A stretch of 32,435 nt of DNA from Cenarchaeum sp. SB0675_bin_21 (GCA_009843815.1 VYCS01000014.1:1-32435); one strand, 5' to 3'. Counted from the stretch's first letter, positions 11,829 to 27,568 are shown. Numbers and translations are program-made. The notes: generated by a model not told the origin, from the sequence alone.

Positions 11829-13106
11829 TGTGTGGACCGTACTATACATTAATGGCGTTACGCACATATACATTTAGAGTTAGATTCCGTAAGGGGTTCA
11901 AGGAGGGGATGTTGGCCGGACAGGCCGGCTTGGATAGGTATGTGTATAACAAACTATTGGAAATCTTCAAGGAAGAGTACCGTCGAGTTGGGAGGGTCAA
12001 CACTACGCGCGGTAGAATAAACGCCTGATATACGGACTTGCGCAACCACTCGGGTCCACGTTGGCTGAAACAATCCATGTCGCAGGTAACGCGCCAAATA
12101 TTATATGATCTGGGCAGGCATTATGACCAATATGTGGAGACAGAGAGGTTGAAGGCTGCTGGCCTCGAACCTAAGGTGGAGTTTGGTGAGCCGCACGTTA
12201 AGAAACATGGAAGTCATATCTCCATCCCGTTGACGATAACGCATGATAACACTACTGGTCAGGCGCGCTTCACTGATACACGTACAATCAGGATAGCCAA
12301 GATGGGCGAGATTAAATTGTCGCGGGAGTTTCCCGTCTTGAATTACCGATACAAGACTGCACAACGGTTTCAACTGCCGGATGGCGGGTGGAGAATTACC
12401 ATATCTTGTAATATACCTGATGAGGAGCCAGTTGTGACGGAACCGACTATTATTGGCATAGACCGGAATGTCGGTAATGTGACCACACCTGACTGGGTAA
12501 TAATTATACCTGAAAAGGTGGCACGCCGCATGAACAACGCCGAGAAGACGGCCTCAAAGGCGCAAAAGATAGCATCATACAGGCAGAAGCCGGAGCATAC
12601 GAATCGCAAGCCCGGCTCCCGACGGTGGGCGAAAGCCGCCAAACGTGCCGCCAAGAACAAACGCAAGGTGGCAAACATGCGAAAGACCATCACACATAAG
12701 ATATCACGCATTATATCTAACAGCGCCACACATGCAGCCCTTGAGAAACTTCCCATACAAAACATGGTACAGTCCGCCAAAGGCACGGAAGAAGAACCCG
12801 GCAAAAACGTTGCGCAGAAGTCTGGGCTGAACAAGGCCATTCTGGAGCAGTGTTGGAGGCTGCTCGCTGCTCTATTGGAGTACAAGTTGGCTGGCGAGAT
12901 AGTTTGGGTTGCGGCAGCATATACAAGTCAGCGGTGCTGCTCGTGCGGCTATATGCATGAGGACAACCGGGATGGCAGAAAGTTCTTGTGCAGGAAGTGT
13001 GGCTACACATATCATGCCGACTGCAATGCGGGCTCAAACATAGAAGATATGGGGCTGAAGAAACTTGGCCGGGGGGCCATACATGACCAACTAAAGTTAC
13101 GAAATT

Positions 13107-13124
13107 TGCCGGACTACACCGGCA
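13107..13124 (+). repeat. Inverted repeat in the tnpB 3' region
   Basis: A perfect 6-bp stem (TGCCGG, loop ACTACA, CCGGCA). It lies in the part of tnpB beyond the zinc ribbon, where protein constraint should be low, so it may reflect RNA structure. Confidence 0.5.
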
Positions 13125-13253
13125 GCACCCATTGTACAAGAGGTGTCTGGACGTGGAGGGTTCTTGCGTTAGCTCCCCTGGGAAGCGTCAAGCACGGACC
13201 GGGGAACGAGATGCTTCATGCATTGTCGTCCTCTGGCATGATGTGTAATTGTA

Positions 13254-13271
13254 GGTGCGGGAACCCCCGTG
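13254..13271 (+). repeat. Hairpin near the right end of the tnpB element
   Basis: GTGCGGG, loop AACC, CCCGTGC. The pairing includes G-U pairs, so it is stronger as RNA than as DNA. It is a candidate for the terminal stem of the guide-RNA scaffold or the subterminal hairpin of the right end. Confidence 0.4.
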
Positions 13272-13301
13272 CTTGCAGTAGGAACCGATGGAGCCAAGCT
13301 T

Positions 13302-13310
13302 CATAATATG
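13302..13310 (+). promoter_or_regulatory. TATA-like box of the peroxiredoxin gene
   Basis: CATAATATG is centred about 24 nt before the ATG at 13330. It overlaps the tnpB stop codon at 13304-13306, so the mobile element ends at, or supplied part of, this promoter. Confidence 0.4.
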
Positions 13311-23581: not shown

Positions 23582-26500
23582 CTAGCGGCATGTTTGTGCG
23601 GCATCAGATGCCGACAGAACATGACACTCAGACGCAAGCTCACTGTCAATGTCGGTGGAATAGTACCCAGTACCAAACACCAGCCCATCATCAAGTATAA
23701 GCCATGTGCGCTTGGTCTCCTGCCTGTCTGTTCCGGGATATGTGTGGTTGTAGCCGACCCAGACACCTGATCCACGGTTTAATTCATCCAAGAGATCCTG
23801 CTTTGAGACTGCCTGAATTATGGCACTCCAGTCGGTTATTTCACCGATACTGGTGGGGTCGATGCCCTGCGCCAAGGTCTCATCTAGCACAGAATCCGCA
23901 ACAAAAGAGTAATGGGGGTCAGACGCACCCGTGTTTACGGAGTCGATTACGGCGGCCCTACCGTCGCGCTCATATTCCAGTACGAGGCTGTGTGTCAATG
24001 ACTGCACGTTGGATTCCAGTATGTAATAACCAGACCCGAACACAAGGCCGTCATGCAGCTGCAAATAAGAGCGCTTTAGCTGCTCTACATTGGTGGCTGG
24101 ATTGTGAAATATGTAAGAGACCCACAGCGAGCCTCTGTCGTGTAATTCAACAAGGACGTCCTCAGGCGTTCTAAAAGAGGTGTCTAATATGATCTCACGC
24201 TGGTCTACCCTGTCGGGTACGACGCCGTCTGCCAAACGCGTCCAGGATTCAGCATCTATTACAAACGGATACAGCGCGTCAGTCGTGAGTTGCCGATCAG
24301 GAGTGATTATGTCTCTCCACGCGTCATCGGCCTTGTTGTTGTCATAGATGTCTATTGCACCGCGTACTTCAAACTTGACATCGGTTTCTAGTATGTCGGT
24401 GGAATAGTATCCTGCACCAAACACCAGACCGTCATGCAGTACGAGCCATGTGTGTTTTAGTTCTGGTTCGCCCGTAATCGGGGATATGTGAGTATAGCTT
24501 ATCCAGTCACCACTTCCCCGGTCCAGATTCTCCAGGACATCAGACTCTGGATATGTATCAGTTATGGCATCCCAGTCGGTCATAGTACCGACCACACTGC
24601 TGTTGACATTTTGGGCCAGCGTTATGCCAGAAGTAGGGTCGACTGCAAACGCATATGTGGTAATCGGTATGGGCGGAACCATGCCAATCGATTGAATCGT
24701 GGCGTTTCTGTAGTCACGCTCGTACTCCAGTATTCGGTTATGGACCAATGACTGCACTTTGGAATCAAGTACGTAATAGCCTGATCCGAACACGAGACCA
24801 TCATGCAGTTCAAGATAGGTGCGCTTTAGCTGCTCTATGCCCGTGGCGGGGTTGTGAAATATGTAATTGACCCATAGCGAGCCTACTTCATTTAATTCGG
24901 CAAGTACATCATCTACTGATCTTGTGGACGTATCCAGGATGGTCTCCGGCTGCCCCACCCTGCCAGGTACGACGCCATCTGCCAAACGCGTCCAGGATTC
25001 AGCATCTATTACAAACGGATATAGTGCGTCAGTCGTGATTGGTTCATCGGGCGTGATTATACCTGCCCAATCTTCACCCGTGCGATTGGCATCCCTGTAA
25101 ACGTTTATTGCATTTTGCACTGCAAACTTGACGTCTGATTCTGGAATCTCAGACGTATAGTATCCCGAACCAAACAGGAGGCCCTTGTGCAGTACAAGCC
25201 ACGTGTGCTTGTTTTCCGCTTCACCGGACGCCGGATTCTGATGAATATAGCTGACCCACATACCGGGTTGGACGGTAACCGTATCTATAATCTCCTGCGC
25301 AGGGACTACCCCGGTAATGGATTCCCAGTCGGTAACGCCACCGGGCAGATCAATGCCTTGTGCCAGAGTCTCCCCAGTCGTGGGGTTTACTACAAAATTA
25401 TATGTGGTTGCCGGTACCGCGGGTACTCGGTCAATTAACGCAAGCGTCCTGTCTCTTCCGACGCTGTCATACCCGATTACACTTGCAAACACCCTTGCCT
25501 GCGCCTCTGACTCGAGTATGTAATATCCGGATCCAAACACAAGCCCATCTTTGAGTTGAAGATAGGTGCGCTTTAGCTGCTCTACGCCTGTGGCGGGGTT
25601 GTGAAATATGTAATTGATCCACAGCGAGCCTGCTTCATTTAATTCGGCAAGTACATCATCCACGGATCTTGCGGACGTATCCAGGATGGTCTCCGGCTGC
25701 CCCACCCTGCCAGGTACGACGCCATCTGCCAAACGCGTCCAGGATTCAGCGTCAATCACAAACGGATACAGTTCAGATGTTACGACCGGCTCGTCGGGAG
25801 TGATTATGTCCCTCCACGCATCATTTTCGCGGTTGGATTCGTAAACGAATCTGGCATAATCGGTCGCCGATTGGGTATCGGCATCGGCAACTGAATATTG
25901 GGCCAAAAACAGATAGCCGTCATTAATTGTAGACCAGGATCGTGTGATCTGTGTGGTTCCGGTATCTGGATTGAAGGCAGCGAATTCTCCCCATAAGCTG
26001 ACACCGTCTGGAATGAATCTGAGCGGGAGTTGGTTCTTTAGAACATTAGAGGGTGGAACGGGGCCGACTCGCTGCGGTGCCGCGCCGTCTGCGAGTATAT
26101 GGGTCTCGTTTCTTATTATTGGAGAGACATCCAGCCTGTTGAGCTCCCCCGAATTGATTATCGTAATGGCCTTTTCTGGGTTGTTGTTATATGCATAAAC
26201 GGCATCGTCTACAGTCGATTGTACCCGAATGTCAGGAAGTGAAATGCTTGCGCCGAATATGTAATCACCGTACAACACCAGATATGTATGAGTAAGCTGC
26301 TGGGTCCTAGTTGCAGGATTCAGATCCATGTGCCATATCCAAACCCCGTCTGTTCCCGCATTCTGCAACTCGGCTAAAATTACCTCTGGTGATTTGTCGG
26401 CTGCCTCAAAATGAACGTATTTTTCACCCACCTGCATGGGTAATCTGCCATGTGCCACCACTTTCTGGGTTTCTGCATCCAATACGAAATATGACCGCGT

Positions 26501-27568
26501 TGACAGTGGATCAAACGAATCAGGGGTCATCATGGTAAAGGCATCGGTTCCATGGGCATCATACAGTAGCATGGAGCCCTCTGCAGGCCCTCGTGCGGAA
26601 TAATCGGTAGGATAGTAACCAGATCCGAAAACATAACCCTCGTGCAGGTAGAGCCATGTATACTTTAGCTGTGTTATGTCAGTGGATGGGTTGTGGAATG
26701 TATATGACACCCATGCAGAGCCCGTGTCGCGCAGTTCTGCATGGACATCTTCCACTGACCTTGCGGCTGTATCTAAAATTCTCTCAGGTTGTCCCACTCT
26801 GTCTGGTACGACACCGTCGGCAACTCTAGTCCAGCTCTCAAAGTCTATCACAAACGGGTATAGTTCATCGGTTATGACGGTCTCGTGGGGGGTGATCATG
26901 CCGGCAGCAAAGGCGCCTACCCCCTCTGCCTCATATCTCTGTACGGTCGACTCTACCAGGTTTTGAACCTCGAAATCGGCCAAAAAGTAACCTGACGAAA
27001 ATATCAAACCATCTTCGTGTAGGTGCAACAGAAGACGTACCACCATGTTCTGGCCGGTTGATGGATGTATGGTGATGTATTTTACCCATGCCTCTGTATT
27101 GGTCTCCAAATCCATAACGAGTTGTTCGAATGGAATGTCAGTCTCACCGTTAAATGTACGATCAAAACGGACATTGATATTGCCTAGCAAAATCTGTTCT
27201 GATCCTATTCCGGGAGTAAAAACAGATGTTCCTACAAATCCGGGCGTAGGACTGGCCAGAACCTTTCGGCTTTCCTTATCCACAACAAGTACCAGCAGAG
27301 TGTCAAAAGAGGTCCTGCTGTCAGTAATCATTTCAAACGCCTCCTGCCCATGTTCATCATACAACATTAGTGCGTTATCTAGAGCCTCTCGAACTTGGGC
27401 ATCTATTCCATTTTGGTCATATATGATACGTTCTTGACCGTCTGCGGCAAATGCAGTGTTAAGAAAGGAGGGGGATGATGCCATAAATGTTGCAACTGCG
27501 ATCATAATTAATGCGACAGTTGAAATTTTAACAGGAGAATTTAAGCTCAAAACATTACACCCAAGCAA
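23582..27568 (-). CDS. Large exported protein of ten tandem Cache-like repeats
   Basis: A 1328-residue protein. Residues about 14-41 form a signal peptide (Lys14, hydrophobic core, likely cleavage after AFA at 41). The rest is ten repeats of about 116-128 residues, each ending in a GSGYY-type motif near residues 197, 322, 445, 561, 686, 807, 935, 1057, 1185 and 1306. The unit resembles single Cache sensor domains (NPATG, then K-x-T-Y-L-x-L-x-D-G-L-V-F-G-S-G-Y-Y). Repeats 5, 7, 9 (type A) and 6, 8, 10 (type B) alternate with a period of 249-250 residues; repeat 2 is A-like. Repeats 3 and 4 are diverged. I see no later membrane helix, kinase or chemoreceptor domain, so it is probably secreted or surface-bound. 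Start is TTG at 27568, 24 nt from a TATA box. Function unknown. Confidence 0.85.
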   Translation of the reverse strand: MLGCNVLSLNSPVKISTVALIMIAVATFMASSPSFLNTAFAADGQERIIYDQNGIDAQVREALDNALMLYDEHGQEAFEMITDSRTSFDTLLVLVVDKESRKVLASPTPGFVGTSVFTPGIGSEQILLGNINVRFDRTFNGETDIPFEQLVMDLETNTEAWVKYITIHPSTGQNMVVRLLLHLHEDGLIFSSGYFLADFEVQNLVESTVQRYEAEGVGAFAAGMITPHETVITDELYPFVIDFESWTRVADGVVPDRVGQPERILDTAARSVEDVHAELRDTGSAWVSYTFHNPSTDITQLKYTWLYLHEGYVFGSGYYPTDYSARGPAEGSMLLYDAHGTDAFTMMTPDSFDPLSTRSYFVLDAETQKVVAHGRLPMQVGEKYVHFEAADKSPEVILAELQNAGTDGVWIWHMDLNPATRTQQLTHTYLVLYGDYIFGASISLPDIRVQSTVDDAVYAYNNNPEKAITIINSGELNRLDVSPIIRNETHILADGAAPQRVGPVPPSNVLKNQLPLRFIPDGVSLWGEFAAFNPDTGTTQITRSWSTINDGYLFLAQYSVADADTQSATDYARFVYESNRENDAWRDIITPDEPVVTSELYPFVIDAESWTRLADGVVPGRVGQPETILDTSARSVDDVLAELNEAGSLWINYIFHNPATGVEQLKRTYLQLKDGLVFGSGYYILESEAQARVFASVIGYDSVGRDRTLALIDRVPAVPATTYNFVVNPTTGETLAQGIDLPGGVTDWESITGVVPAQEIIDTVTVQPGMWVSYIHQNPASGEAENKHTWLVLHKGLLFGSGYYTSEIPESDVKFAVQNAINVYRDANRTGEDWAGIITPDEPITTDALYPFVIDAESWTRLADGVVPGRVGQPETILDTSTRSVDDVLAELNEVGSLWVNYIFHNPATGIEQLKRTYLELHDGLVFGSGYYVLDSKVQSLVHNRILEYERDYRNATIQSIGMVPPIPITTYAFAVDPTSGITLAQNVNSSVVGTMTDWDAITDTYPESDVLENLDRGSGDWISYTHISPITGEPELKHTWLVLHDGLVFGAGYYSTDILETDVKFEVRGAIDIYDNNKADDAWRDIITPDRQLTTDALYPFVIDAESWTRLADGVVPDRVDQREIILDTSFRTPEDVLVELHDRGSLWVSYIFHNPATNVEQLKRSYLQLHDGLVFGSGYYILESNVQSLTHSLVLEYERDGRAAVIDSVNTGASDPHYSFVADSVLDETLAQGIDPTSIGEITDWSAIIQAVSKQDLLDELNRGSGVWVGYNHTYPGTDRQETKRTWLILDDGLVFGTGYYSTDIDSELASECHVLSASDAAQTCR
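24927..25003 (-). repeat. 77-bp identical repeat, copy in Cache repeat 7
   Basis: This stretch is identical over 77 bp to 25674-25750, exactly 747 bp (249 codons) away. It encodes the conserved LADGVVPGRVGQPETILDTS part of type A repeats. Sequence beyond the block is also close to the other copy. A more diverged copy lies around 24177-24253. Confidence 0.85.
25674..25750 (-). repeat. 77-bp identical repeat, copy in Cache repeat 5
   Basis: Partner of the block at 24927-25003, in the same orientation and reading frame. Identity at synonymous sites points to recent duplication or gene conversion. Confidence 0.85.

Follow-up and report, generated by a model that had tools for sequence, protein, structure and literature searches.

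Proteins with Cache domains generally carry signalling outputs (Upadhyay et al., PMC4822843). The closest described relatives of the protein reported here belong to the sCache_2 family (PF17200), in which PscD binds propionate through Tyr90, His103, Tyr143 and Lys156 (PMC5062169) and Adeh_3718 binds acetate through the equivalent four residues (PMC3831638). The dCache_2 family is thought to have arisen as a duplicated sCache_2 (PMC4822843). Here we analyse a stretch of 32,435 nucleotides (the window) from Cenarchaeum sp. SB0675_bin_21 (GCA_009843815.1, VYCS01000014.1:1-32435), in which the minus-strand open reading frame at 23582-27568 encodes an exported array of ten tandem sCache_2-type units. 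We favour, with a probability of about 0.55, the reading of this protein as an exported multivalent capture array for small metabolites that has been cut loose from signalling. Close relatives suggest that the source, an ammonia-oxidising archaeon, probably belongs to Ca. Nitrosokoinonia (GTDB VYCS01), a genus whose members are sponge symbionts and include a metagenome-assembled genome (MAG) from Ircinia ramosa (PMC11812461).

The translated frame is 1328 amino acids long when read from the TTG at 27568, and the start codon is uncertain between this TTG and another at 27550. A predicted signal peptide (27446-27550, minus strand; residues about 7-41, ending AFA before AD) was placed from the sequence, its hydrophobicity and the upstream DNA. 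Hydrophobicity peaks only at residues 11-36, within this peptide, and no second stretch in the protein is fit for anchoring (best later Kyte-Doolittle window 1.18). After the tenth unit about 25 residues remain (23585-23659), in which translation, Pfam and hydrophobicity reveal neither an anchor nor an output domain. The protein thus lacks the transmembrane anchor and the cytoplasmic methyl-accepting chemotaxis protein (MCP), histidine kinase or GGDEF output of a Cache chemoreceptor or sensor kinase. The units measure 116-148 residues and share 18-76% pairwise identity. A profile built from them recovers exactly ten domains in the array protein, each with an E-value of 1e-34 to 1e-50, and recovers such units in independent paralogues as well; the repeat pattern is far beyond chance. 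An earlier note on this DNA had proposed an exported protein of ten tandem Cache-like repeats with no output domain, and all three points hold.

Modelling places the units firmly in the Cache fold. An AlphaFold2 model of units R7 and R8, computed from an input that included 51 related pairs, reached a mean predicted local distance difference test score (pLDDT) of 94.4 and repeats twice the order helix, two strands, helix, three strands. The model of R1-R4 shows these elements arranged in the same way, though with less confidence (pLDDT 72.7). When the R7-R8 model was searched with Foldseek, the top ranks were mostly proteins with two PAS domains, which share a common ancestral fold and are favoured by length; the informative matches are the single-domain sCache_2 sensors 5g4y, 4exo/2qhk, 4k08 and 3ub6 (target-normalised template-modelling score 0.51-0.60 over about 140 columns). 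A pair profile that included bacterial relatives found 3ub6, 2qhk, 4k08 and 5g4y in the PDB at 1.6e-7 to 5.9e-6, and the sCache_2 domains identified by profile and fold searches include those of TlpB, PscD and Adeh_3718. The units accordingly have a PAS-like Cache fold with an N-terminal helix and a five-stranded sheet, and their nearest solved structures are sCache_2 domains. In both models every unit is complete with an N-terminal helix and a sheet of its own, and the single long helix serving two modules that is characteristic of dCache_2 is absent. A non-Cache fold such as a beta-propeller, which the earlier note had named as the finding that would overturn its proposal, is ruled out by the R7-R8 model and the Foldseek matches.

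Family assignment from sequence gave a mixed answer. The whole protein matches dCache_2 (PF08269; E-value 1.3e-10, 41.4 bits against a curated cut-off of 26.5), the only Pfam Cache family above its cut-off, with the best match at residues 636-808 covering parts of R5 and R6. Single units, searched one by one as the earlier note had suggested, fall below the Pfam threshold; sCache_2 (PF17200) gave nothing at an E-value of 1 or less in the Pfam search of the array protein. Other arrays of the same genome do pass the PF17200 cut-off, namely four-unit proteins on contigs C36 and C10 and the long array on C10 (51.4 bits, whole protein). Taken with the models, the identity of the protein as a Cache array is near certain.

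The ten units follow a regular order, which alignment resolves for all of them, together with the unit tree for R2-R10. From the N-terminus, on the minus strand, R1 (26984-27427; alignment, profile and R1-R4 model) is diverged and carries a long insert, R2 (26612-26983) is of a type that we call A, and R3 (26240-26611) and R4 (25892-26239) each represent a type specific to their position. They are followed by R5 (A1, 25520-25891), R6 (B1, 25157-25519), R7 (A2, 24773-25156), R8 (B2, 24404-24772), R9 (A3, 24023-24403) and R10 (B3, 23660-24022), that is, three A-B pairs. Identity among the A units R5, R7 and R9 is 66-76%, among the B units R6, R8 and R10 40-48%, and between A and B only 28-36%; R2 shares 54-60% identity with the remaining A units. 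The spacing of the FGSGYY motif gives a super-period of 249-250 amino acids for A and 248-251 for B. The alternation of the last six units with a 249-250 residue period, as first noticed, thus stands, with two refinements: R2 belongs to the A type, and R1, R3 and R4 occur singly and have diverged further.

Mapping the units on the PscD and Adeh_3718 pockets separates the two types by a single residue. All A units (R2, R5, R7 and R9) read Tyr-Asp-Tyr-Lys and all B units (R6, R8 and R10) Tyr-Gln-Tyr-Lys, so that of the carboxylate triad of PscD (Tyr90, His103, Lys156) the Tyr and Lys are kept and the His is replaced by Asp or Gln. The Asp occupies the His column in every A unit where that column is covered in the array proteins of this genome and of the related genomes JAJEHG and G002, the Gln in all B units, and this type-specific fourth residue holds across paralogues and species. 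Most units of bacterial relatives and of proteins with LVIVD-type repeats (see below) keep His, so the Asp and Gln look derived. In HMMER alignments TlpB also has Asp at the usual His column, as the A units do. We take TlpB to be a urea-binding protein and its aligned Asp (D114) to be, presumably, a urea contact, subject to a caution about these columns. Not all alignment columns of TlpB are structurally equivalent, as the PscD study warns (PMC5062169). Urease is encoded in all three genomes of the genus examined, so that a urea-like ligand can be put forward, but only as a guess for testing.

The array is one member of a family. The unit profile matches 53 places in the same genome, distributed over about ten reading frames. 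Arrays on C10 and C40 have at least 11 and at least 9 units, respectively, and both reach contig ends; C46 encodes LVIVD-like repeats (recognised by eye) with about 6 Cache units, and C36 a cupredoxin bearing 2 units as well as, separately, a protein of 4 units. A further protein of 4 units is encoded on C10, and C14 has two type I periplasmic-binding domains with one Cache unit. The unit counts differ among paralogues. The end of C10 (L009:8770-8824) is identical over 55 bp to the reverse strand of the end of C33 (L011:13250-13304), inside the array repeats. Most simply, the three units at C33:34167-35303 would complete the C10 gene to 14 units, four followed by five A-B pairs, the joining being an assembly inference. 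We had considered these three units as a pseudogene and rejected this in view of the exact overlap. If so, another array gene, longer than the one at 23582-27568, probably lies some 7 kb away from it and on the same strand. Adjoining this second gene, L011:10429-12024 (minus strand) encodes an exported protein with a repeated IPDWVRNNAGWWADG motif, in a region that holds an N gap and exact direct repeats of 108 bp and 55 bp.

The family is present, in multiple copies, in all three genomes of the genus examined, and the unit profile matches 5 of 398 sampled genomes of the phylum, two of the five from the same genus; it is nearly restricted to one genus within the phylum. At the level of the taxonomic family, sCache_2 occurs in 8 of 151 genomes. 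The homologues in G002 and JAJa have broken reading frames that may be assembly errors. In JAJEHG an array gene is split between L061:3633-4133 and L061:4102-7560 by what looks like a frameshift close to where unit 1 ends, which could likewise be an assembly error. The gene at 23582-27568 has housekeeping neighbours (thioredoxin, archease, RFC, aIF5B and NDK), none of which is a partner receptor, and no synteny with other array genes was found in the loci searched. Elsewhere in the window, a TnpB/OrfB gene of IS605 type at 12038-13306 (plus strand) adjoins complex I genes.

A tree of 84 units, built on a short alignment that leaves many forks open, suggests how the arrays grew. The R3 units of every paralogue fall into a single clade (support 99), as do the R4 units (99), which indicates that these two positions are older than the divergence of the paralogues. 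The B units, too, all belong to one clade (99), and the first A units cluster across proteins. Later pairs tend to cluster within a protein or lineage (units 7 and 9 of the window array, JAJa 6 and 8, JAJa 7 and 9, G002c 2 and 4, and a C10/C40/C33 set), pointing to the A-B pair as the unit of recent amplification. The ratio of nonsynonymous to synonymous rates (dN/dS) between units is 0.04-0.41, with several dS values saturated, which indicates purifying selection.

Relatives were sought in a genome collection with an alignment of A units. They were found in the MAGs Cenarchaeum sp. SB0662_bin_33, Nitrosopumilaceae 277c_17, p16x60bins.31, SAR202 bin90 and two Acidimicrobiales; SAR202 bin90, recovered from Aplysina aerophoba (PMC5649159), is the one SAR202 genome with a confirmed sponge host. 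The three bacterial arrays (L066, L067 and L068) begin with a lipobox-like signal, comprise 6, 16 and 3 units, respectively, and lack an output domain; two of them contain a coiled-coil-like stretch. One of these is the lipoprotein-like six-unit protein of SAR202 bin90 (L066:4108-7050, plus strand), in which two units have Asn at the His column. An Acidimicrobiales MAG encodes a lipoprotein-like protein of 2100 amino acids with 16 tandem sCache_2 units (L067:2815-9114, plus strand), which exceeds the array described here. sCache_2 is found in 6 of 9 genomes of the family of this 16-unit genome, mostly with 2-3 units per frame, and in 4 of 8 genomes of the SAR202 family. The bacterial proteins resemble ours as output-less exported multi-unit arrays; they differ in the lipobox-like signal, in pockets that are mostly of His type in the inspected units and in showing no strict A-B alternation, and their units fall outside the archaeal clade in the tree.

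Cache units are also fused to other extracellular modules. JAJEHG encodes an exported frame of 906 amino acids (L091:1157-3874, plus strand) in which four Cache units are joined to SBP_bac_3 and which ends without a transmembrane helix or kinase. In G024, a relative with a 3.2-Mb genome, giant frames of 4055-5609 amino acids (L092, which is G024:C1:2072000-2090000, L059 and L060) join a right-handed beta-helix, one Cache unit and an ANF_receptor domain, so that fusions to ANF_receptor/Peripla_BP_6 occur both there and on C14 of our genome. Proteins with LVIVD-type repeats (by eye, in C46 and G002 C108; L012:5002-7650 and L022:1489-4527, both minus strand) end in about six Cache units, mostly of His type. 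Fusions with cupredoxin, possible copper or ligand surface proteins, are encoded in this genome (L013:4108-5541, minus strand) and in other Nitrosopumilaceae genera (L076:64-2202, L077 and L079); L076 also carries a Kazal-type inhibitor domain (Pfam).

These observations fit a bead-chain of ten single PAS-like ligand-binding domains exported to the pericellular space or cell surface. At least seven units, A and B, may each bind a small polar metabolite, the Asp and Gln types differing in preference, for instance for small carboxylates or for amides and urea-like nitrogen compounds that originate in the sponge host. Such an array would act as a high-capacity, two-specificity capture device or buffer in the pseudoperiplasm or sponge matrix, not as a receptor. 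The analysis establishes architecture, fold, export signal, the A-B amplification unit, pocket types, selection and family; binding, ligand class, location after export and benefit are what we infer. By association, the fusions of Cache units to SBP_bac_3 and to ANF_receptor/Peripla_BP_6 argue for a capture role, as do the bacterial arrays, whose exported or lipoprotein-like proteins likewise have no output domain. The earlier note's suggestion that this is possibly a multivalent protein for ligand binding or of the cell surface remains the best reading.

Several points weigh against binding as the function, and some of them would suit a structural or adhesive surface protein, in which the Cache units are rigid beads of an S-layer-associated stalk or of a host/symbiont adhesin, copy number tunes length or antigenic surface, and binding is vestigial. 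R1 is degraded, R3 (Ser-His-His-Thr) keeps the His and loses the Lys, and the pocket of R4 is degenerate here and intact (Tyr-His-Tyr-Lys) in the C10, JAJa and G001 paralogues, so that R1, R3 and R4 have lost most pocket residues in the array protein. The A-type Asp is not universal: in the diverged lineage G001, R2 carries His, and the remaining A-like units are gapped at this column. Binding could have been lost together with the conserved His, and the kept Tyr and Lys could be structural or simply inherited. An archaeal-only unit profile found no PDB chain at an E-value of 1 or less, so the sequence link to solved structures needs the bacterial relatives in the alignment. A structural role would also agree with the copy-number variation among paralogues and with the surface modules of related proteins, namely the LVIVD repeats, a type reported in sponge Thaumarchaeota (PMC7848895), the beta-helices of the G024 giants and the coiled-coil-like stalks of SAR202 and Acidimicrobiales. 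However, a pure spacer would need neither the Tyr, Tyr and Lys that every A and B unit of the protein retains nor a type-specific fourth residue maintained genus-wide, and the solute-binding fusions point to binding; we regard a purely structural role as a serious contender, if an unlikely one.

Since Cache domains are normally sensor inputs (PMC4822843), the array might instead be a soluble co-receptor that docks, ligand-loaded, on a membrane sensor and so feeds signalling. This is improbable given that no MCPsignal domain was found in three genomes of the genus (histidine kinases were not searched for) and that no receptor lies beside the array gene. Decay of a receptor, or a functionless pseudogene array, is highly improbable: the degenerate R4 and R1 and the broken frames of the G002 and JAJa homologues would be expected of it, but an open frame of 1328 codons, the low dN/dS and multi-copy families in all three genus genomes are not. 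The capture reading may extend further, to a speculative and rather doubtful proposal in which output-less Cache arrays are a recurrent device of symbionts (ammonia-oxidising archaea, SAR202 and Acidimicrobiales) that turns a receptor input into an exported multivalent solute-capture polymer. The A-B pairs of the genus would give it two specificities, lineages would tune capacity by adding pairs, and the A-type Asp pocket, which resembles that of TlpB at this column, might trap nitrogenous waste of the host that is similar to urea and so supply urease and ammonia oxidation.

The open-access literature yielded no published account of sCache units in tandem whose pocket types alternate. In answer to whether this architecture had already been described, only the enrichment of Cache domains in sponge-associated Thaumarchaeota, read as possible host or surface recognition, turned out to be known (PMC7848895). 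Those proteins share the host guild and Pfam class of ours, and the text consulted does not speak of arrays of many units, of alternating A and B types or of kinds of pocket. Beyond what the earlier note had seen are the array family, the fact that within the phylum it is nearly confined to a single genus of sponge symbionts, and its output-less bacterial relatives. Until now, domain counts have been the basis for asking what a sponge-associated ammonia oxidiser binds outside the cell; one A unit and one B unit are concrete and easily expressed candidates for such binding.

Animal alpha2delta subunits and CACHD1 offer a distant parallel in that they are extracellular, contain four Cache domains and lack a signalling output (PMC9901441), and alpha2delta-1 binds amino acids (PMC9901441). 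They gave weak fold matches and are not close relatives: they are membrane-anchored channel subunits built from dCache_1 pairs and a VWA domain, without tandem amplification. dCache_2 receptors combine one pair with an output domain, whereas each unit of the array has its own complete fold. The nearest systems remain PscD, Adeh_3718, VP0183 and TlpB, which are alike in fold and topology and of which PscD and Adeh_3718 share three of their four carboxylate contacts with the A and B units. In all four, a single copy lies between two transmembrane helices before an MCP module; here there are ten copies, no transmembrane helix or output, and Asp or Gln in place of His. A large output-less tandem family with a fixed alternation of two pockets shows the Cache fold serving beyond signalling by its own protein.

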